46,598 bases of DNA from contig MGTI01000157.1 of NCBI GenBank assembly GCA_001799365.1, forward strand, positions 1-46,598, read 5' to 3'. The notes beneath the pieces were generated by a model. It made no database searches and had not been told where the DNA came from. It saw only the letters and a list, made by a program, of their open reading frames with translations. Source of the stretch: Desulfobacterales bacterium GWB2_56_26. Its GTDB lineage: Bacteria > Desulfobacterota > Desulfobulbia > Desulfobulbales > Desulfocapsaceae. Numbering within the stretch: position 1 is the stretch's first letter; every line of letters starts with the position of its first letter. Of the stretch, positions 11,104-21,701 are shown in pieces. The translations under genes were made by a program, and so were the position numbers.

Positions 11104-11204
11104 GGTACGAGAATTTCTCCAACAGGGAATGGTTCAGGTGTGGTATCCTGAGAGGTGTATTGTGTAGTTGTCGGAGGCGGAAGCAGCGTTGTTCGGAACA
11201 GCTT

Positions 11205-11229
11205 GTCCAAATGTTGGATAATGTTGGAC
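11205..11229. promoter_or_regulatory. Inverted repeat GTCCAA-N13-TTGGAC before the MCP gene
   Basis: Perfect 6-bp arms (11205-11210, 11224-11229) lie 25-50 bases before the chosen MCP start. The spacer includes GATAAT, usable as a -10 box, but I see no matching -35 box. The placement suits an operator for the chemosensory operon. Short arms make chance occurrence possible. Confidence 0.3.
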
Positions 11230-11253
11230 GGTAACAGAAATCATGGAGACGGA

Positions 11254-13407
11254 ATGGACGGGAAAAGCAGAGAGCCTGGCGTGCAGGACAGTGTTTCTTC
11301 ACAACTTGCGGGACATCGAAAAATTCGTGCGAAACTGTTGTGGTCGTTTTCGGCGCTGATCGCGCTCACCCTGGTGGTAATCGCAATCACCCTCATTTCG
11401 CAGACCTTTGCCCAGAGAACAATCGACGATCTGGTGCGGGTCCATGGCAAAGTCGCCCGTTTGAGTCTTGAAACGGAAAAGACCTTGCGCGTCATGCAGG
11501 GGCTGGAAAAGGATTTCCTGCTGAACCACGACAAGATCGGCATCCGCGAAGCCAAAGAAATCTACCTCAATCCCTTCATAGCCAGCGGCGGCGAGGCCTA
11601 CCGGACCTTGTATCAGATCCAGCAACTGGCCAAAACGCCGCAGGATTCCGACGCCGCCCAGACGGCCATGGATTCCATCAACGAATATCTCAGTGCCTTT
11701 GTCGGTACGGCCAATATCCTGGAACTTCGGGTGGATAAGGAGTTCGGCGAACTGGTCAAGCTGCGCCAGAGCCTCGACAACCTCGGAGCAAGCGCCGCGG
11801 GCCTCGGCCAGTCGACGGTGCAGAACGGCTTTTATCAGCTCAAGGCGGTGCTGCAGGATTACCTCATGGTCCCTGACCGGGAAAAACTTGCCGCAGTTAA
11901 AACCCAGAAGGCGGCGTTTGCCGGCCTGATCGAGCAGCAGCCGGGAGCCGGAGAGAAGAAGGCCAAGGCCACCGAGCAGCTGGCCGAGTTCGACAAGTGG
12001 TTCGTCGAGGTGACCAATACCGACGGCATCATCGCCGCGCGGATCAGCGGTTATCAGGATGCGGCCAAGCGGGCGGAACCGGTAATCAAATCGTTTCTCG
12101 ATTACTCCGTTGCCAACGAGGCCAAAGCGACCGAGGATATGGAAAATACTGCGGCCCTCGTTAAGAAAATCGTGCTCGGTGTGGGTATCGTCTCCATTCT
12201 GCTGGCGGTATTCATCGCGGTGAAGCTGTCCCGGGGGCTGACCAATCAGGTCAACCACATTATGACGCTGCTCGCGGAAATCGGCCTCGGCAACTTCCAG
12301 GCCCGTACCCCCGTGGTGAGTAACGACGAACTCGGCGTCATGGCCTCAACCCTGAACGGCATGCTCGACAACATTACTGTGCTCATCCAGAGCCAGGAAG
12401 AGCGCGATGCCATCCAGGAATCGATCATGAAGCTGCTGGAAGACATCAGTACCCTGACCGACGGCGATTTCACCAGCCGCGCCGAGGTAACCGAGGACAT
12501 GACCGGGGCGATCGCCGACTCGTTCAACGCCATGGCCGACCAGTTCTCCGACATCATCAGTAAGGTAAAAGTGGCGACCCAATCGGTGGATATAACCTCG
12601 GAAGAGGTTGCCAGCCAGACCATGACCCTGGCGAGCAAGAACATCGAACAGGTGAAAGGGGTAACCGCGGCCGTTGCGGCCATAGAGCAGATGGTCGAAT
12701 CGATCCGTGCGGTGGCGAATAACGCCCAGAAATCTGCATCGGTATCGCGGCAGTCCAGGGTCAACGCCCAGGAAGGTGCCCTGGCGGTAATCGAGACCAA
12801 CAAGGCCATGGCCGAGATCCGTGAGCAGATCAACGAGACGGCCCGGTCGATCAAGCGCCTCGGCGAAACCTCGCTCGAGATCGGCAACATCGTCCAGATC
12901 ATCGACGAGATTGCCGACCGGACCTCCATCCTGGCCCTCAACGCCTCCATCCAGGCGGCCATGGCCGGTGAGGCGGGACATGGCTTTGCCGTGGTTGCCG
13001 ACGAGGTCCAGCGTCTGGCGGATAGTTCGAGTAACTCGACGAAACAGATCGAACTCCTGGTAAAGAGCATCCAGACCGAAATCAAGGAGGTCAGTAACCG
13101 TATCGACGAAGGTATCGGCAAGGTTGTCCAAGGCTCGAAGCTGGCCGACGGCGCCCATGAAAAGCTGCAGGAGATCGAAAAGGTTTCAAACGATCTGGCC
13201 GAACTCATCGAGGCCATCACGACAGCTACCACCAGCCAGGTGCAGGTGACCGAAACAATAGCAAAAACCATGAAAGAAGTCGGCGAGGTAAGTAGGGAAT
13301 CCTCCCTGTCTTCCCAGGATACGGCGGCATCGATGAACATCCTGAGTAAAACCGCCCGGGATCTGCGCTCAGCCGTCGAGGTCTTCAAAGTGGGAGATAC
13401 GGCTTAA
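11254..13407 (+). CDS. PilJ-type methyl-accepting chemotaxis protein
   Basis: A 717-residue membrane chemoreceptor. TM1 is about residues 27-50, a long helical periplasmic domain covers 51-300 (about 250 residues, possibly an HBM-type helical bundle), TM2 is about 303-326. Two HAMP-like units follow (327-380 and 388-440), then the cytoplasmic signalling hairpin 440-712. The tip reads ALNASIQAAMAGEAGHGFAV (561-580) then VADEVQRLAD, the PilJ variant of the canonical ALNAAIEAARAGE tip, and the poly-HAMP is also PilJ-like. I prefer ATG 11254 because GGAGAC stands before it; upstream starts at 11155 and 11221 lack a ribosome site. It heads an operon with two CheW genes and a ChpA-like CheA. No CheR/CheB is nearby, so methylation-based adaptation is doubtful. 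Confidence 0.88.
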   Translation: MDGKSREPGVQDSVSSQLAGHRKIRAKLLWSFSALIALTLVVIAITLISQTFAQRTIDDLVRVHGKVARLSLETEKTLRVMQGLEKDFLLNHDKIGIREAKEIYLNPFIASGGEAYRTLYQIQQLAKTPQDSDAAQTAMDSINEYLSAFVGTANILELRVDKEFGELVKLRQSLDNLGASAAGLGQSTVQNGFYQLKAVLQDYLMVPDREKLAAVKTQKAAFAGLIEQQPGAGEKKAKATEQLAEFDKWFVEVTNTDGIIAARISGYQDAAKRAEPVIKSFLDYSVANEAKATEDMENTAALVKKIVLGVGIVSILLAVFIAVKLSRGLTNQVNHIMTLLAEIGLGNFQARTPVVSNDELGVMASTLNGMLDNITVLIQSQEERDAIQESIMKLLEDISTLTDGDFTSRAEVTEDMTGAIADSFNAMADQFSDIISKVKVATQSVDITSEEVASQTMTLASKNIEQVKGVTAAVAAIEQMVESIRAVANNAQKSASVSRQSRVNAQEGALAVIETNKAMAEIREQINETARSIKRLGETSLEIGNIVQIIDEIADRTSILALNASIQAAMAGEAGHGFAVVADEVQRLADSSSNSTKQIELLVKSIQTEIKEVSNRIDEGIGKVVQGSKLADGAHEKLQEIEKVSNDLAELIEAITTATTSQVQVTETIAKTMKEVGEVSRESSLSSQDTAASMNILSKTARDLRSAVEVFKVGDTA

Positions 13408-13473: not shown

Positions 13474-14646
13474 ATGGGAAGAGCTTTAACGATTTTTTTG
13501 CTGGGATTGGTGCTGGCGGTAGGTATAAGGAATACCTGCCTTGCTGAAGAGAATGTCATCCGCATCGGCTTTAACATCGCCCAGACCGGCATGTTCGAAC
13601 TGGTCGGCAAAAATGCCATAAATGCCGGCGAACTGGTCCGCCAGGATATCGAAAAGGCCGGCGGACTTACGGTAGGCGGCAAGAGCTACAAGGTTGAGTT
13701 TCTCTATGGCGATCATACCTCCGATCCGTCAGTTGCCGCCGCCTTGGCAGTGAAACAGGTCAGCCAGGAGAAGGTCCTGGGGATCATCGGACCGCTCATC
13801 AGCCGCCAGGCGATACCCGTGGCCCAGATGGCGCAGGCCTATTCAACCCCCATGATCACCCCCTGGTCCACCTCTCCCCTTACAACCCAGAACCGACCAT
13901 TCGTATTTCGCACCTGTTTCGTCTTTACCATCCAGGGACCGGCCATCACCAAATTTGCCGCCAGCCAGTTCAACGCGACCAAAGCGGCAGTGCTGTACGA
14001 TATCATCAGCGCCTACCCGCGAGGCATGGCGAACAGCTTCAAGGAGGCCTTCGAGGCGGCGAACGGGCCTGGTTCGGTGGTTGCCTTCGAGGAGTTCCGC
14101 ACCGGCGATGTCGATTTCAGTAAACAGATGAATCGAATCAAGGAATCCGGGGCTCAGTTTCTCTTTACTCCCCAGCATTACAACGAGGTCCCCCTGATCG
14201 TCAGGCAGGCGAAGGCGCTGGGCTTGACCATACCCGTCGTGGGCAGCAACTCCTGGGCCGGAGGCGATCTTATCGGCCAGTGTGGTACGGATTGCAACGG
14301 CTTGTTTTTCACCGGCAACTATGCGCCAGGAAATGCCAAGGGACTCAACAAATCCTTTGTCGAAGCCTATACCAAGGCTTATGGCAGCAATCCGGATGAA
14401 CCGGCGGCGCTCACCTGGGATGCGGCGAGACTCATGGTCCAGGCGATCAAAAATACCGGCGGCCTGACCGGAGATCTGGTCCGCGATCGGATAGCGGTGA
14501 AGGATGCCTTGGCAAAAGTCAAGGACTTCGACGGCGCAACCGGGAAAATCGGCTTCGATGGCAACGGCGATCCCAGTAAATGCACGGTGATTGTCAAAAT
14601 CGATGAGAATGGAGTCTTCACCTTCCACGATTCTGTCTGTCCGTAG
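13474..14646 (+). CDS. LivK-like periplasmic binding protein in the chemosensory operon
   Basis: A 390-residue type I periplasmic binding protein of the branched-chain amino acid/amide/urea group. The signal peptide is residues 1-24 (cut after CLA). The first lobe shows IRIGFNIAQTGMFELVGKNA and LGIIGPLISRQAIPVAQMAQ, with STPMITPWSTSP and FRTCFVFTIQGPAITKFA as ligand-region segments; the second lobe has AVLYDIISAYPRGMANSFKEAF, FLFTPQHYNEVPLIVRQAKALG and the closing LTWDAARLMVQAIKNTGGL. Two cysteines, CGTDC, could form a disulfide. No ABC permease or ATPase genes lie beside it. It sits 66 bases after the MCP gene and just before a receiver protein, so it may present a ligand to the MCP rather than feed a transporter (inference). 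AGG-rich sequence (GTGGAGG) precedes the ATG. Confidence 0.85.
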   Translation: MGRALTIFLLGLVLAVGIRNTCLAEENVIRIGFNIAQTGMFELVGKNAINAGELVRQDIEKAGGLTVGGKSYKVEFLYGDHTSDPSVAAALAVKQVSQEKVLGIIGPLISRQAIPVAQMAQAYSTPMITPWSTSPLTTQNRPFVFRTCFVFTIQGPAITKFAASQFNATKAAVLYDIISAYPRGMANSFKEAFEAANGPGSVVAFEEFRTGDVDFSKQMNRIKESGAQFLFTPQHYNEVPLIVRQAKALGLTIPVVGSNSWAGGDLIGQCGTDCNGLFFTGNYAPGNAKGLNKSFVEAYTKAYGSNPDEPAALTWDAARLMVQAIKNTGGLTGDLVRDRIAVKDALAKVKDFDGATGKIGFDGNGDPSKCTVIVKIDENGVFTFHDSVCP

Positions 14647-14678: not shown

Positions 14679-16565
14679 ATGCACAACTCTCGTACTGTTT
14701 CCGGTGACAATAAAGGAAATTTCCTCGACTACCTGAAATCGTTGCTGGGGATTTCAGGTAATGTCGACATCACAGTGAGAAAAGCTGTGCATGTCGGACT
14801 GGTGCAGGTTCGGCAGGGGCGGACCGTCGCGGCGGCATGGGGCCGCCTGGCCGGCAACGGCGCCCTCCTCACCCTGGCGGCCATGCCGGAGGTCGTCTAC
14901 GAGGCCGCGGAATCGACGAAACCGGCCGACGGCAATGTCACGCTGACCTTGCCGGCAGCGGAGCGGCTGCTGAATACCCTCCTCACCTCCCCGGGTGTCG
15001 ACGCAGGCGATGAAGAGGAAAAACTGCAGCAGGCCATTCATTTGTTCTATCAATTTCGCCGCAAGGAAGCGGGGGCGCTGCTGGTTGGGATCCTGCGCAC
15101 CAATCGCTTCTACTATCCGGCGTGGCTTTGGCATTCGCGCCTGATGACCCGGGCGGAGTATATCAAAAAGGCCCTGAACGAGGCAAAAAAGTGGGGGAAC
15201 TGCGATCGGGAGATCCAGCTTGAGGCGGCCAGGATCGAACCGCGGCTGGAAGGTGCTGCAGTCACGGTTAAGCGGTGTATTTTCTGCTGGTCCGTGGTGC
15301 AGGAAAAGGCGGACAGTTGCTCGAATTGCCAGGGAATGTTTCATATAGCGGGCCAGAAGGCACCGCCGCCAGGCGGCAACGCCGAGTTGGAGAAGGCGAT
15401 TGTTGCGTACAAACAAGAGTTCGCTGCATGCCCCGGTAATCCCCGGATTGCCTATTGTCTCTGCCTGGCCTTTTATTCGCTGGGCAGGATCGACCAGGCA
15501 ATCGAGTTTGTCGACCGAGCCATGAGAGTCTCTTCAGGGGAAGCGCTTTTTCTGAAGGCCAGAACCCTGCTCCAATCCTTTGCCGGTCAAGCCGTTCAAC
15601 CGGTTCCCCAGACTACACAGGTTGTACGCCCTATTGCTGCGGCTTCATCCGGCACAGGTGTCCCGGACAGGACCATTCTGGTTGTGGAAGACAGTCAGAC
15701 GTCGAGAAAAGTCATAACCATGCTGCTCGAACGAAAAGGCTACACCATCCAGGAAGCAAAGAACGGCTCCGAGGCCCTGGTCAAGCTTGCAGATGAGGCT
15801 CCGGATCTGGTGTTGCTCGACCTGATGCTGCCCGACATGTCCGGATACGAGGTCCTGGCGAAAATCAGGCAAGGCGGGAAAACCGCCGATATTCCGGTCA
15901 TCATGCTGACCGGCAAATCCAATCCCGCCGACCGGATGAAAGGACTGCACCACGGGTCCAACGAATACCTCACCAAACCTTTCGATCCGGCCAAACTGCT
16001 TGCCGTTCTGGAAAAATATCTCGACCATCCGGCCCCGCAACCACCGGCACAACATGCAGCGCCGCCGAAGGTTGTCGTCAAGACCGTACCTCAAGCGCCA
16101 AAAGCGCCGAATCCTCCGGTCCCGGCCCCGAAGCCGGCCTCAGTCGCCCCGGCACCCCTAAAACCGATGCCGGTTATGCCGGCCGTGCCCGCAGGCGGGA
16201 CCGCGAAGAAATCGATTCTGGTGGTGGAAGACAGCCCGACGTCGCGAAAAGTGATCTCGATGGTTATTGCCAAACGGGGGTATACAATCCATGAAGCGGC
16301 GACCGGAGCGGTGGCGATGCGCAAGGCCCAGGAGGGAACCCCGAGCCTCATCCTTTTGGACGCGATGTTGCCCGATATGTCCGGCTACGAAATTTTGCAT
16401 CGGTTCAAAAATGACGAGCGGCTGAAGGATGTGCCGGTGGTCATGCTGACCGCCAGGAATAACCCGGTCGACAGGCAGAAAGGGCTGCAGGGAGGTTCGG
16501 CGGCATACCTTACCAAGCCCTTCGACCCGGAAAAGCTGCTCGCCGTCATCGACGAGTATATCTGA
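14679..16565 (+). CDS. PATAN(DUF4388)-like / zinc-ribbon / TPR protein with two receiver domains
   Basis: A 628-residue cytoplasmic multidomain protein. Residues about 13-105 look like a PATAN/DUF4388 domain (FLDYLKSLLGISGNVDITVR, GLVQVRQGRTVAAAWGRLAG, PAAERLLNTLL). Residues 115-180 and 235-300 are helical TPR-like repeats (AYCLCLAFYSLGRIDQAIEF). Between them is a CxxC-x10-CxxC zinc ribbon (Cys200, 203, 214, 217). REC1 spans 331-450 (phosphoacceptor Asp381, VVED start, TKPF end); a Pro/Ala-rich linker runs 451-508; REC2 spans 510-628 (Asp561). The two RECs are close copies, so an internal duplication is likely. I use ATG 14679 (GGGGA before it); a GTG at 14646 overlaps the previous stop but has no ribosome site. 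There is no output domain, so it probably acts by protein contact. Confidence 0.78.
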   Translation: MHNSRTVSGDNKGNFLDYLKSLLGISGNVDITVRKAVHVGLVQVRQGRTVAAAWGRLAGNGALLTLAAMPEVVYEAAESTKPADGNVTLTLPAAERLLNTLLTSPGVDAGDEEEKLQQAIHLFYQFRRKEAGALLVGILRTNRFYYPAWLWHSRLMTRAEYIKKALNEAKKWGNCDREIQLEAARIEPRLEGAAVTVKRCIFCWSVVQEKADSCSNCQGMFHIAGQKAPPPGGNAELEKAIVAYKQEFAACPGNPRIAYCLCLAFYSLGRIDQAIEFVDRAMRVSSGEALFLKARTLLQSFAGQAVQPVPQTTQVVRPIAAASSGTGVPDRTILVVEDSQTSRKVITMLLERKGYTIQEAKNGSEALVKLADEAPDLVLLDLMLPDMSGYEVLAKIRQGGKTADIPVIMLTGKSNPADRMKGLHHGSNEYLTKPFDPAKLLAVLEKYLDHPAPQPPAQHAAPPKVVVKTVPQAPKAPNPPVPAPKPASVAPAPLKPMPVMPAVPAGGTAKKSILVVEDSPTSRKVISMVIAKRGYTIHEAATGAVAMRKAQEGTPSLILLDAMLPDMSGYEILHRFKNDERLKDVPVVMLTARNNPVDRQKGLQGGSAAYLTKPFDPEKLLAVIDEYI

Positions 16566-16589: not shown

Positions 16590-17150
16590 ATGTCAAGTTT
16601 CCCCGATCTTTTCAATCTCATCCGGCACATCGACGAACAGCTGACGGAGGCCGCCGCCGATTCTGCCGCGTTGATGCAGACTCCGAAATCGATTCCGGAG
16701 AAACTGACAAAATATATCCTGGTCGGTGCCGGCAATCTCCATTTGGCCATCGCCATCGAGGATATGGCTGAAGTCGGCCCATTGCCGGCTATTACCTTTC
16801 TTCCCAACCTGCCTGCCTGGATTCAGGGGATAGTCAATATCAGGAGCGAGATCATTTCGGTCGTCGATCTTCCTGTCTTTCTGGGACTGGCCGAAACAGG
16901 TGGTGCCGGCAGCCGGTTTGTCGTGCTGCACCAGCGGAAATTGAAAGTCGGCATCCGTCTGGACAGCATCATCGGCACGGTCGGCCGTTTCGCCTCGGAT
17001 ATCAAGCCGCTCGATGCCTTCGATGGCAATCGGCTGGATAAGTCCCTTTTTCATTCCGGCTTGCTGGTCGAGAAACGGTTCTACTTTATCTTGAATGTCA
17101 GGAAGCTATTGACTGCGCCACGACTCGTTGACTATAACAGGGCTGGCTAA
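16590..17150 (+). CDS. CheW-like coupling protein (PilI type)
   Basis: A 186-residue CheW-domain protein linking receptor arrays to CheA. The CheW core covers about residues 38-175: KYILVGAGNLHLAIAIEDMAEV, FLPNLPAWIQGIVNIRSEIISVVDLPVFLGL (the conserved 'G--N-R--I--V-DL' of CheW) and VGIRLDSIIGTVGRF. It has a 38-residue helical N-terminal extension (LIRHIDEQLTEAAADSAALM) absent from minimal CheW. It begins 25 bases after the double-receiver gene and is followed by the CheA gene, so it is in the same transcription unit. It is the first of two CheW proteins here; the second is divergent, and they may serve different sites in the array. Confidence 0.85.
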   Translation: MSSFPDLFNLIRHIDEQLTEAAADSAALMQTPKSIPEKLTKYILVGAGNLHLAIAIEDMAEVGPLPAITFLPNLPAWIQGIVNIRSEIISVVDLPVFLGLAETGGAGSRFVVLHQRKLKVGIRLDSIIGTVGRFASDIKPLDAFDGNRLDKSLFHSGLLVEKRFYFILNVRKLLTAPRLVDYNRAG

Positions 17151-17249
17151 ACAAGGCTGGCTGATTGCGGTGCCGGCAGCGTTCCGGCAAAAAACAAGGA
17201 TGTGGTACCTGCTGCGGATCTGAACCTCCGGGAAAGAGGACGAAAAGAG

Positions 17250-20200
17250 ATGTCGAAAATACTGAGAGCCGAGCTCGTTGAGCTTTTCATGGAGGAAGCT
17301 GCTTCCTATATCCCGGCGATACGGCAAAATCTGGACAAGCTTGCCGCCGAGCGCTCGGCGACGAGCGCCCTTGCAGAACTGCACCGGTTGTTTCATACCA
17401 TTAAGGGGGCGGCTGCCCAGGTTCAGTTGGCCGATCTCAGCCAGGGAGCAAGGTTTGTCGAGGACTTTCTGGAAGAGCTGATCGAAGAGGGCAGGGAACT
17501 CACCGTACAGCGTCTTGAAAATCTCGAAAAGATAACCGATATGCTGGGGGAAATGGTCGATACCTCCGGTGACTCATCGGCGGACAGCGGAGATTTCCAT
17601 GCCCGGGTCGTTGCTCTCTTCAGCGATACCGTAGCGCCGGCGGAGGAGGCTCCGGCCGCACCGGCAACTGCGGATCCGGTTTTTGCCGATGAGCGGCAGG
17701 AATGTCTTATGGCCATCCGGTCCATCATCCCGCTGCTGCAGGAACTGGCCGGCTGTATTGTGCCGGGGGTGGCGGAGTTGGAAGAGTACAATGGCATGGT
17801 CTTCAAAAAGTTGGACCATGCCGTGGCCGTCTTTTCCACCGCGGTCCGGACGGCCGGCATGGACGGGCAATACCGGCTGATGCGGGATTTTCAGCTGCTG
17901 CTCGGCAAACTCCACACCGACGGCATCTGGAGCCAGCCGGAAGTTGCAGGACTTATCAGCGATTTTTTCCAGTTTCTGGACGCTATCTTCACCCACGGCG
18001 ACCCTGAGAATAGTTCGACCGTCAGCCGGGTAGAGCATCAGTTGCAGGCCTTTCATTCCCTTCTTGCCGTTTTCCATAACGTGCAGCCGACAGATGCAAT
18101 AGAGGCCGAAACAGGGCTTGATGAAGATATTTTTGCCGCCCCGGCAGCGGATGACGAATCGGTGATCCTGCTCGAACAACTCGTCGAGACCGAATTGCCG
18201 GAGGATGTGGACCTCCTCTCGGACTGGCAGGAGGAATGGGCAGCGGACGGCCAGGCGGTTCTTGCTGAGCAAGAGCCGACGGTCAGCGAGGACCAACTGC
18301 TGCTGCTGGAGATCTTCCGCGCGGAGTGCGACGAGCATCTGATCGTGATCAACAGTTCCTTGAACAGCCTGGAACATCAAGTCGAGCAACCATCTCTTCT
18401 CACTCCGGAGTTGAGGGAGATTCTCAGCGAAATGCGCCGGGCCGTCCACACCCTGAAAGGTGCCGCCGCCATGACCGGCGTAAACCTTTTGGCCCAGGGC
18501 GCCCACTCGCTCGAAGACCTGCTGGACTGGCTCCACGACGAGGCGACGGAGATCACTCCCACGGAAGTCGGAATTCTTGCCACCGGGATCGATGTCATCG
18601 AGCTCCTGTCGCAATCGCCGGAGGCGAGCGGCGCGGAGCATCTGAGCCGTCTTGTGGCAACGATCGATGGGCATCTGGCCCAAGCAGGAGGCCGAACCGC
18701 GGCAGGTGAAGCTGAGCTTGCTTGGGAACCGGCGGATAAAGAAAGCGAAAAACCGGAAGCAGTCGAAACAACCCTTGCCGAAACGGACCCAAAAGAGGAG
18801 ACGCCCACCCGACTGCCGGGCGAATCCGGTTTCTTGCGGGTCAGGCTCGACGATCTCGACGAACTGATCGGTATTGAGGGCGAGTTGGTCGTTGCCCGCG
18901 GATCCGTTGAAAAAATGCTGGACGAGTTCGGCCAGACGCTTATCGAATTCGACAATGTCAAAGAGAATCTGCGGCGGAAATCCCAGGAGCTGGAAGCGGG
19001 CTTCGAAGTCAAATCCCTCTACGGCTTCAATCCCGTTGCCCCGGGAAACTCCGGAGAACCCGCGACGGGAGATTTCACCGAATTCGATCCGATCGAGCTT
19101 GACCGCTATTCCCAACTGAACCTGATTATCAGATCGCTGAATGAGATAACGGTCGATATCAACTCCATTCACGCCACCCTGGCCCTCCTGGCCAGCGACA
19201 TCCGCGGGCAGGTCAGCAAACAGCAGCTGACCATGCGCCTCATGCAGGAAAAACTCATGCGTATCCGGATGACGCCGATGTCTTCGCTCTCCCGGATGCT
19301 GTTCCGAACAGTCCGGGAGACCGCCAAAAAACTGGAGAAGAAGGTCAACCTCATCATCTCCGGGGAAGACGTCTATATGGACCGCTTCGTCTGGGCCAAG
19401 ATCACCGATCCGCTCATGCATATCCTACGCAATGGTGTCGACCACGGCATCGAGTCACCCCGGCAACGCATGGCCGCGAACAAGCCGGAGATCGCCACGA
19501 TCCGGCTGGAAGCCGAGCAGCACAGCCGTTTCGTAGTCCTGCGGGTGTCGGACGACGGCGGCGGCGTCGACATGGCGCGGATCAAGGCCAAACTGCAGAA
19601 CGAAGGGTTGGTGGCCAACCCGGACTTGTTGAGCGAGAAGGAGTTGATCGAGTACCTCTTCCATCCCAGTTTCTCCACCAGAGAGGACGTAAGCGCCATT
19701 TCCGGCCGCGGGGTGGGGCTCGATGTCGTCCGCCGCAACATCCAGGATCTGCGGGGTTCGGTGCAGATGCAGAACAAGCCGGAGCAAGGCGTCACTTTCG
19801 AATTCCAGATTCCTTTTACCCTGTCGGTCAACCGGGCGGCCATCGTGTCGGCGGCCGGCCGGGAGTTTGCCGTGCCGCTCCAGGATATTCAGCAGGTCAA
19901 ACGGTACGGGGCGGCCGAACTGGAGGCCGGCGACGGGCTCTATCTCCGCTTTGGCGAGCGGCTCGTGGCGGTCACGAATCTCGGCTACTGCCTGCAGCTT
20001 GAAGGTCGCAACACGACCCTGCCGGCAGGCGGAGAGGGGCTGCTGGCCATCGTCTTCAAGAAGGGCGAGGAACTGCGGGCGGTCTCCATCGACGAAGTCA
20101 TGGAACAGCGGGAGATCATCGTGAAAAACCTCGGCAGTCATCTGACCCATGTGCCGGGAATAAGCGGCGTGACTCTCACCGGCGCCGGAGAGTTGATCCC

Positions 20201-20663
20201 TATCCTCAACCTCAGGGAACTGGTGGAAATCAAGGCAACTATGGCGAAAGGCGAGGAGGAAGTTCCTCAACCGCTGGCCTTGAACGATCCCCTCAAGGTG
20301 CTGATCGTCGATGATTCCATCTCCGTCCGGCACAGCGTCGCCCGGCTGGTCGAAAGCCAGGCCTGGAAACAGCAGCAGGCGGTGGACGGGGTCGATGCTC
20401 TGGCCAAACTTGCATCATTTTTGCCTGATGTCATTGTCCTCGATATTGAGATGCCCCGGATGAACGGCTACGAATTCAAGAGCAATATCAACAACAATGA
20501 AGCGTTTCGGGATATTCCGGTGATCATGTTAACATCCCGGACTTCGGAAAAACACCAGCAGAAAGCGAAGGAACTGGGCATCCATCATTATATGACCAAG
20601 CCCTACCAGGAGGCAGCCTTCGTAAGGCTGCTCGAGAATATCCGCAGCGGCAGTGTACAGTGA
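17250..20663 (+). CDS. ChpA/PilL-like hybrid CheA histidine kinase
   Basis: A 1137-residue chemotaxis kinase with an attached receiver. HPt1: residues 5-105, phosphoacceptor His49 in LFHTIKGAAA. HPt2: residues 350-455, His400 in AVHTLKGAAA. Between them, 150-280 is a helical region that looks like a worn HPt without the His motif. The acidic linker (480-525) leads to dimerisation (about 527-680), then HATPase (N box HILRNGVDHGIE 724-735, DDGGG 768-772, GRGVGLD 819-825), CheW-like domain (855-995) and a C-terminal REC (1015-1134; Asp1065, acidic pair 1021-1022, Lys1117). Multiple HPt domains plus C-terminal REC mark the type IV pilus Chp class. GAGGA precedes ATG 17250; the upstream 17202 start has none. 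The REC may act as phosphate sink or own-kinase control. Confidence 0.9.
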   Translation: MSKILRAELVELFMEEAASYIPAIRQNLDKLAAERSATSALAELHRLFHTIKGAAAQVQLADLSQGARFVEDFLEELIEEGRELTVQRLENLEKITDMLGEMVDTSGDSSADSGDFHARVVALFSDTVAPAEEAPAAPATADPVFADERQECLMAIRSIIPLLQELAGCIVPGVAELEEYNGMVFKKLDHAVAVFSTAVRTAGMDGQYRLMRDFQLLLGKLHTDGIWSQPEVAGLISDFFQFLDAIFTHGDPENSSTVSRVEHQLQAFHSLLAVFHNVQPTDAIEAETGLDEDIFAAPAADDESVILLEQLVETELPEDVDLLSDWQEEWAADGQAVLAEQEPTVSEDQLLLLEIFRAECDEHLIVINSSLNSLEHQVEQPSLLTPELREILSEMRRAVHTLKGAAAMTGVNLLAQGAHSLEDLLDWLHDEATEITPTEVGILATGIDVIELLSQSPEASGAEHLSRLVATIDGHLAQAGGRTAAGEAELAWEPADKESEKPEAVETTLAETDPKEETPTRLPGESGFLRVRLDDLDELIGIEGELVVARGSVEKMLDEFGQTLIEFDNVKENLRRKSQELEAGFEVKSLYGFNPVAPGNSGEPATGDFTEFDPIELDRYSQLNLIIRSLNEITVDINSIHATLALLASDIRGQVSKQQLTMRLMQEKLMRIRMTPMSSLSRMLFRTVRETAKKLEKKVNLIISGEDVYMDRFVWAKITDPLMHILRNGVDHGIESPRQRMAANKPEIATIRLEAEQHSRFVVLRVSDDGGGVDMARIKAKLQNEGLVANPDLLSEKELIEYLFHPSFSTREDVSAISGRGVGLDVVRRNIQDLRGSVQMQNKPEQGVTFEFQIPFTLSVNRAAIVSAAGREFAVPLQDIQQVKRYGAAELEAGDGLYLRFGERLVAVTNLGYCLQLEGRNTTLPAGGEGLLAIVFKKGEELRAVSIDEVMEQREIIVKNLGSHLTHVPGISGVTLTGAGELIPILNLRELVEIKATMAKGEEEVPQPLALNDPLKVLIVDDSISVRHSVARLVESQAWKQQQAVDGVDALAKLASFLPDVIVLDIEMPRMNGYEFKSNINNNEAFRDIPVIMLTSRTSEKHQQKAKELGIHHYMTKPYQEAAFVRLLENIRSGSVQ

Positions 20664-20681: not shown

Positions 20682-21161
20682 ATGGAGACGAGGCTTGAAG
20701 TTGCAACGATACAGGCGAACTGCGATCCTTTAAACGGGTATGACCTGTACTGGGCTGTGAGCAGGAGTCAGTTGGAATTTATCCTGCAGAATATCGAGGT
20801 GTTTCGCGCGCCGCCGTTCGCTGCCACGGCTCAATACCAGGAAAAAATGCTGCCGGTGGTGAATCTTGAAAAGCATTTCGGCCTGGTCGAGAAGAAATCG
20901 GGAAAATCCGCCAAATACCTGGTCCTTCGCGCCGCCGGTGCCAATCATGGCCTGGTCAGGCTGATAATCGAGACGCCGGTTCCGGTGAAACTGCAGAAAG
21001 TGGAGCAGGGACTCGCCGCTTCCTTTGGTGGGCTGGCGTTGCCGAAGAACAACGTGGATATCCTCGGCGTCTACTCACTTTCCGCAAATGAGCTGGCAAT
21101 CGTACCGGATATCGGCTGCATCAATCGATCGCTGAAACTGCGCGGCGACCATAATCTGTAA
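20682..21161 (+). CDS. Second, divergent CheW-like protein
   Basis: A 159-residue protein that can be read as a shortened CheW fold: YDLYWAVSRSQLEFILQNIEVFRAPPF (first strands), EKMLPVVNLEKHFGLV (the CheW 'PVVNL' segment), KYLVLRAAGANHGLVRLIIETPVPVKLQKV and the closing GVYSLSANELAIVPDIGCINRSLKL. It lacks the 'G--N-R' stretch, so CheA/receptor binding may be altered. It starts 18 bases after CheA and belongs to the same operon. The gene product could be a ChpC-like auxiliary CheW, which links extra receptors to the ChpA kinase in Pseudomonas. The family assignment is fair, the role inferred. Confidence 0.7.
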   Translation: METRLEVATIQANCDPLNGYDLYWAVSRSQLEFILQNIEVFRAPPFAATAQYQEKMLPVVNLEKHFGLVEKKSGKSAKYLVLRAAGANHGLVRLIIETPVPVKLQKVEQGLAASFGGLALPKNNVDILGVYSLSANELAIVPDIGCINRSLKLRGDHNL

Positions 21162-21335: not shown

Positions 21336-21701
21336 ATGGCCAGTAAATTGATAATGATAGTTGAGGACAGCCCGACCGACAGAAGAATCGCCGAATCCGT
21401 CTGTGCCGATAACGGCTACCGGGTCATTACCGTCACCGAGGGCGACAAGGCCCTGGCGATGGCGATTGAGAAGAAACCGGATCTCGTCCTGCTCGACGTC
21501 ATTCTGCCCAACAAGAACGGGTTCCAGGTGTGCCGGCAGTTGAAAACCACTCCGGAAACCAAGGACATCCGGGTCATCATCGTCAGCAGCAAGGATCAGG
21601 CGAGCGACAAATTCTGGGGCATCAAGCAGGGTGCCGACGATTACATCACCAAACCCTACAGCGAGGACGACCTGCTCGCTGCAATCCAGAAGAATATTTG
21701 A
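21336..21701 (+). CDS. Single-domain response regulator (PilH/PilG/CheY-like)
   Basis: A 121-residue stand-alone receiver: acidic pair in MIVEDSPTDRR (Glu9, Asp10), phosphoacceptor Asp in LVLLDVILPNKNGFQVC, switch Ser in VIIVSSKDQASDKFWG, Lys in DYITKPYSEDDLLAAI. The NKNGFQVCR and FWGIKQGADDYITKPY segments look like PilH/PilG of type IV pilus systems. AAGGAAA precedes the ATG. It is the last gene of the chemosensory cluster, after a 174-base gap with a G/C box, so it may be separately expressed. It is the likely phosphate acceptor from the ChpA-like kinase, carrying the signal to the pilus motor or acting as a sink; no pilus genes are in the window. Confidence 0.9.
   Translation: MASKLIMIVEDSPTDRRIAESVCADNGYRVITVTEGDKALAMAIEKKPDLVLLDVILPNKNGFQVCRQLKTTPETKDIRVIIVSSKDQASDKFWGIKQGADDYITKPYSEDDLLAAIQKNI

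Follow-up and report, generated by a model that had tools for sequence, protein, structure and literature searches.

The window, by which we mean the whole 46,598-nucleotide stretch of DNA that was analysed, carries a chemosensory operon on its forward strand, in which the gene for a multidomain response regulator lies between those for a receptor and a binding protein on one side and those for CheW, CheA and CheY on the other:

11155-13407, + strand: methyl-accepting chemotaxis protein (MCP) with HAMP and MCP signal domains (Pfam)
13474-14646, + strand: periplasmic binding protein, Peripla_BP_6, adjoining the receptor gene (Pfam)
14679-16565, + strand: regulator gene, PATAN - helical/TPR-like - four-cysteine ribbon - TPR - REC1 - linker - REC2 (open reading frame, Pfam, family alignment)
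16590-17150, + strand: CheW (Pfam)
17202-20663, + strand: CheA with two Hpt stretches, dimerisation, ATPase and CheW domains and a C-terminal receiver, with no P2 match (Pfam)
20682-21161, + strand: second CheW-like protein, a weak match (20.4 bits in Pfam against a cut-off of 23.5)
21336-21701, + strand: single-domain CheY (Pfam, trees, gene order)

The regulator gene encodes 628 amino acids plus a stop codon. A GTG at 14646 is a possible other start; the start codons of relatives line up with the ATG at 14679. The reading frame proposed in the earlier note is real. Pfam finds two strong receivers in the protein (E 3.5e-58 for the whole protein), together with weak matches to TPR models and to a double zinc ribbon. 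Its parts are as follows:

14712-14993, + strand: divergent PATAN/DUF4388 domain, spanning roughly residues 12-105 (profile-profile match, shuffled controls, relatives' Pfam matches)
15006-15263, + strand: helical region, about residues 110-195, weakly TPR-like (TPR_20 at 109-143, E 0.068; conserved alignment blocks)
15270-15344, + strand: CxxC-x10-CxxC ribbon, residues 198-222, with C200, C203, C214 and C217 (homologue pattern; weak DZR_2)
15375-15578, + strand: TPR pair, about residues 233-300 (family Pfam TPR models; solved TPR chains)
15666-16022, + strand: receiver REC1, residues 330-448, phospho-acceptor D381 at 15819-15821 (Pfam, site residues)
16023-16205, + strand: linker between REC1 and REC2, 61 residues, 54% proline plus alanine (composition)
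16206-16562, + strand: receiver REC2, residues 510-628, phospho-acceptor D561 at 16359-16361 (Pfam, site residues)

The source genome (4.5 Mb in 263 contigs) contains one match to the N-terminal 314 residues of the regulator. This genome (G000) is rich in two-component signalling, with 136 HATPase matches and at least 151 receiver-type matches (scoring covered 150 of 205 candidates). The nearest named relative is a MAG titled Desulfobulbaceae bacterium BRH_c16a (62% over residues 1-307). In that assembly, two contigs (G003:C16 and C32) hold copies, L026 and L027, that match the query equally and perhaps stem from two strains in one bin.

Genomes of the class were counted as carriers of the N-terminal unit when they matched its 305-position profile below E 1e-30; up to nine candidates were scored per genome, and the count is a lower bound. 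At least 56 of the 257 genomes are carriers, and they belong to three of the 15 families (f1, f12 and f15). One of these matches, in G033, spans profile positions 1-138 only. An even draw of 297 genomes of the phylum gave five long matches, the window included, all within the window's order. Outside the 56 carriers, the profile matches listed are partial and cover mostly the PATAN part, some the TPR part only.

The ribbon and the receivers were examined in 41 loci, one of them the window's and the others from 40 of the 55 remaining carriers. Fourteen loci have two C-terminal receivers (one locus being cut by a contig end) and 18 have a single one; seven have a receiver at each end, and one (L125) has an N-terminal receiver only. 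L123 (G084), where an in-frame TAA falls between the PATAN-TPR part and the receiver through either a sequencing error or a real split, was counted apart. The extra receiver ahead of PATAN in L124-L131 keeps its acceptor aspartate in all eight loci; asparagine replaces one residue of the acidic pair in one of these sequences and the lysine in one. The domain mix had been thought new. Most of the individual domain calls hold, while the combination is not peculiar to the source genome and marks a conserved family.

The PATAN-like start of the protein is visible at the level of this family and not in the window protein alone. The latter has no DUF4388 (PF14332) match in Pfam at E up to 1, and its residues 1-115 on their own have none even at E up to 10, so the profile search that had been suggested as a check on the N-terminus came back empty. 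For a more sensitive comparison by hhalign, the query alignment consisted of residues 1-115 from ten family members with double receivers, and the target of seven of the eight Pfam-defined DUF4388 domains that the source genome encodes outside the regulator (L033, which has a long insertion, was left out). L018, whose N-terminus is cut by an in-frame stop, was excluded from two family alignments, this query set included. The two alignments matched over 63 columns (94.8%, E 5.1e-8, score 47.9), corresponding to regulator residues 21-85. The best of 200 column-shuffled controls reached a score of 17.7 and E 0.024. Reversing the alignment gave E 0.15, and three stretches from elsewhere in the family alignment gave E 0.25, 0.61 and 0.79. 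The family N-terminal profile, in turn, recovers three of the DUF4388 domains of the source genome.

Relatives carry the Pfam match that the window protein lacks. DUF4388 is matched by five of the ten double-receiver N-termini (E up to 10, best 0.0012), and none of the ten matches any other Pfam family at that threshold. With E up to 1, it is matched by six of 15 family members (best 9.7e-10) and by four of five single-receiver relatives (best 1.7e-10); two other Pfam families are weakly matched among the latter, in one member each. The profile-profile match, the shuffled controls and these matches in relatives support the assignment of the N-terminus, by homology and at family level, as a divergent PATAN domain. 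That it is instead some unrelated domain agrees with the failed search on the window protein, yet is very improbable given the distance between the hhalign result and both the shuffled and reversed controls, and given that DUF4388 is the sole Pfam family found in the ten close relatives and recurs in most of the single-receiver ones. Two-sequence AlphaFold2 models of the regulator (mean pLDDT 42.7 and 43.6) were too poor to bear on the PATAN fold or the clustering of the cysteines.

The earlier note saw no output domain in the regulator. This is doubtful and probably wrong, since PATAN is reported as the part that mediates the contact with PilB in Synechocystis (PMC10519157); by this analogy PATAN is the likely output domain.

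Behind the PATAN domain, the pattern C200-x2-C203-x10-C214-x2-C217 has all four cysteines invariant in a 15-sequence alignment, and CxxC...CxxC occurs in 41 of 41 homologues (as CxxCW in 35, whereas in six a different residue follows the first pair). The proposed four-cysteine ribbon thus stands as a conserved motif, while as a zinc ribbon profile match it falls short, DZR_2 scoring 12.7 bits in the window protein against a cut-off of 27. The helical repeats present a similar picture. TPR matches of the window protein alone lie below the Pfam cut-offs, whereas 13 of the 15 sequences of the family have a TPR_2 match (E up to 1, the best being 7.3e-7) and family profile positions 233-289 match solved designed TPR chains, so that a TPR pair can be assigned at family level.

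Both receivers have complete phosphorylation sites: E337/D338, D381, T411 and K433 in REC1, and E517/D518, D561, T591 and K613 in REC2. The acidic pair, the aspartate, the threonine and the lysine are intact in 39 of 39 REC1 and 13 of 13 REC2 homologues, in agreement with the proposal that D381 and D561 are the phospho-acceptor positions. The Pro/Ala-rich character of the linker was also described correctly for the window; in 12 relatives the linker is 45-88 amino acids long and contains only 12-42% proline plus alanine.

The two receivers had been described as near-duplicates produced by a recent duplication, and neither term fits. REC1 and REC2 of the window are only 56% identical to each other, compared with 86% (REC1) and 91% (REC2) to their counterparts in the nearest relative. 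A tree of 58 receivers was built with IQ-TREE and rooted on CheY, for which six of 35 CheY rows were used; receivers shorter than 100 amino acids (L095 REC2) were left out. A supported group (98/91) unites the REC2 sequences of the window's genus with the one from a single member of genus g15, so that the duplication is older than the genus. REC2 of genus g14 groups with single-receiver homologues, and the duplication probably occurred twice. A single origin of all REC2 sequences is disfavoured (forcing them together gave AU p 0.025), with one old duplication plus losses as a possible variant. One C-terminal receiver looks like the ancestral state, because proteins of that type branch outside. 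The idea that REC2 is a captured operon CheY was rejected: the CheY sequences cluster in a clade (100/99) that is separate from both REC1 and REC2.

A division of labour in which REC1 is the working switch and REC2, instead of being a second output switch, serves mainly as a phosphate buffer or sink is possible. We put it forward tentatively; it would be compatible with a pilus-directed role of the protein. A single C-terminal receiver in an otherwise similar operon (18 of the 41 loci) argues that one receiver suffices, and in the trees REC2 sits with REC1, away from the operon CheY. Against such a subordinate role, REC2 has kept all five site residues in every one of the 13 sequences; its identity to the window across 12 relatives (49-91%) is about that of REC1 (49-86%), which fits either role.

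The gene neighbourhood is conserved together with the protein. Downstream of the PATAN gene, 36 of 41 loci have CheW and CheA in the same orientation. Three of the remaining five (L095, L115 and L125) reach a contig end downstream; L127 has CheB, MCP and CheA with no recognised CheW, and L124 carries the N-terminal unit with no CheW, CheA, CheB or MCP within 5.9 kb downstream. In 17 of 41 loci, which are 16 of the 17 of family f12 plus L130, the PATAN gene and CheW directly flank a CheY gene, and in trees the window CheY groups with the CheY proteins of this position. A Peripla_BP_6 homologue is present in nine of the 14 double-receiver loci, the window included, and its position next to the receptor gene suggests binding-protein-mediated sensing. 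Pfam found no photoreceptor domain in the window receptor and recognised no CheR or CheB in the window operon. A peptidase M16 gene lies within the operon in 10 of 41 loci, all of single-receiver lineages (L105:2879-4153, L119:2216-3514 and eight others, the copy of L109 being an edge fragment), and was not found in the examined stretches of the double-receiver loci.

By composition the operon resembles the Pil/Pix operons of type IV pili; the pix operon has the gene order pixGHIJL. CheA proteins of the Tfp class are described in PMC10782961 as having several Hpt domains, a C-terminal receiver and no P2. The window CheA has this make-up, although several Hpt domains with a receiver also occur in the ACF class, and the joint encoding of an MCP, a CheW and two response regulators in the window likewise agrees with the definition of the Tfp class. 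Relatives extend the number of Hpt stretches in CheA to three (L119) and five (L126). This genetic setting lends support to the view that the adjacent CheA phosphorylates the regulator and that the system is connected with pili.

A scan of 30 open reading frames of the window recognised no pilus gene. The source genome encodes PilB (771.5 bits, cut-off 675.65) and PilT (352.9 bits, cut-off 319.1). Co-occurrence with PilT was rejected as evidence: all 56 carriers have PilT-family matches, as do 192 of the 201 other genomes, and these matches are uninformative since all 148 near-complete genomes of the class have them. FliM gave no match (E 1e-10) in 27 of 56 carriers, compared with 49 of 201 other genomes (Fisher p 0.0009, a test that ignores kinship; two genera account for 13 of the 27, and not all the genomes are complete). 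There are five single-contig genomes among the carriers that lack a FliM match (G027, G046, G125, G126 and G130), and the N-terminal unit does not seem to depend on the flagellar switch.

From these observations we consider it reasonably probable that the regulator is a PixG-like, pilus-directed response regulator in a CheA pathway. This reading draws on the PATAN homology, the intact receiver sites, the linkage to CheW and CheA, the Tfp-like make-up of CheA, the presence of PilB and PilT in the genome and the carriers without FliM. Several findings count against it: the FliM of the source genome leaves a flagellar or other target possible, the window misses the DUF4388 profile and holds no pilus gene, its CheA is also like those of the ACF class, and there are family members with no CheW or CheA nearby (L124) or no C-terminal receiver (L125).

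A pathway that serves an alternative function (polysaccharide, biofilm or second messenger) or the flagellum, with the PATAN-TPR-ribbon part binding another partner, is in our judgement unlikely. It would accord with the multi-Hpt, receiver-bearing CheA proteins of the ACF class (PMC10782961), with the FliM of the source genome and with the other DUF4388 matches there, which indicate that PATAN-like domains are used in several proteins. It fits less well with the many FliM-less carriers, and the grouping of a PATAN-receiver gene with those for CheW and CheA is familiar from pilus systems.

If the regulator is indeed directed at pili, the receptor, which probably takes its input from the binding protein encoded next to it, would set the kinase activity of the CheA-receiver protein, and the CheA Hpt domains would pass phosphate to REC1 (D381) and REC2 (D561). 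Phosphorylation could then alter the presentation or oligomerisation of the PATAN-TPR-ribbon module. This module would bind PilB/PilC, the motor for pilus extension or the platform, and may set where or whether pili extend, with the ribbon and TPR in a scaffold role. The CheY at 21336 is a likely PilH/PixH-like antagonist. In Synechocystis, phosphorylated PixG is reported to interact with PilC and PilB1 (PMC12288463).

The closest counterparts are the PATAN-CheY regulators of the Synechocystis tax operons (PixG/TaxP2/PilG), in which, according to PMC5812497, PMC10519157 and PMC12288463, an N-terminal PATAN is joined to a CheY-type receiver and encoded with CheY, CheW, MCP and a CheA-type kinase; the pix/tax operons parallel the window operon in gene composition (PMC5812497). 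The window regulator differs in the four-cysteine ribbon and TPR-like helices between PATAN and receiver and in having two receivers, its host is not a cyanobacterium, and its receptor has no Pfam photoreceptor domain. The Pil-Chp system of Pseudomonas similarly has two response regulators, PilG and PilH, which are governed by a CheA with several Hpt domains and a receiver at its C-terminus, as well as two CheW-like proteins (PMC12632253 and PMC10782961). Its PilG lacks PATAN according to PMC10519157, and it includes PilK and ChpB (PMC12632253), unlike the window operon with its lack of a recognised CheR or CheB; CheB is found in the relative L127. Other PATAN/DUF4388 proteins of delta-type bacteria share a homologous N-terminal domain, which in the window is too divergent for the Pfam profile. 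Examples given in PMC11934962 and PMC11580455 are GSU2641 of Geobacter and MXAN_3211 and MXAN_4965 of Myxococcus, so PATAN outside cyanobacteria is not itself new. Among the matches listed from the open-licence literature, we found no publication linking Desulfobulb and PATAN and no relevant title joining three of PATAN, TPR, zinc ribbon and receiver.

A bolder version, which we regard as improbable, would make the single chain a pilus regulator and polar docking scaffold at once, with PATAN gripping the motor, the TPR docking at a pole or membrane hub, the ribbon reporting redox state or metal, and the receivers acting as a two-site (graded or coincidence) switch. Were it true, pilus behaviour would depend jointly on chemosensory and redox signals.

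Judged from its sequence, the regulator is ordinary in kind and unusual in make-up, probably a variant of the PATAN-CheY pilus regulators. PATAN regulators that contact the pilus motor have already been described in cyanobacteria; here, a conserved and operon-linked version with added TPR and ribbon is found in three families within one order of sulfate-reducer relatives. Its natural variants, with one receiver, with two, or with a receiver at either end, may help to show how phosphorylation sets pilus direction outside phototaxis.
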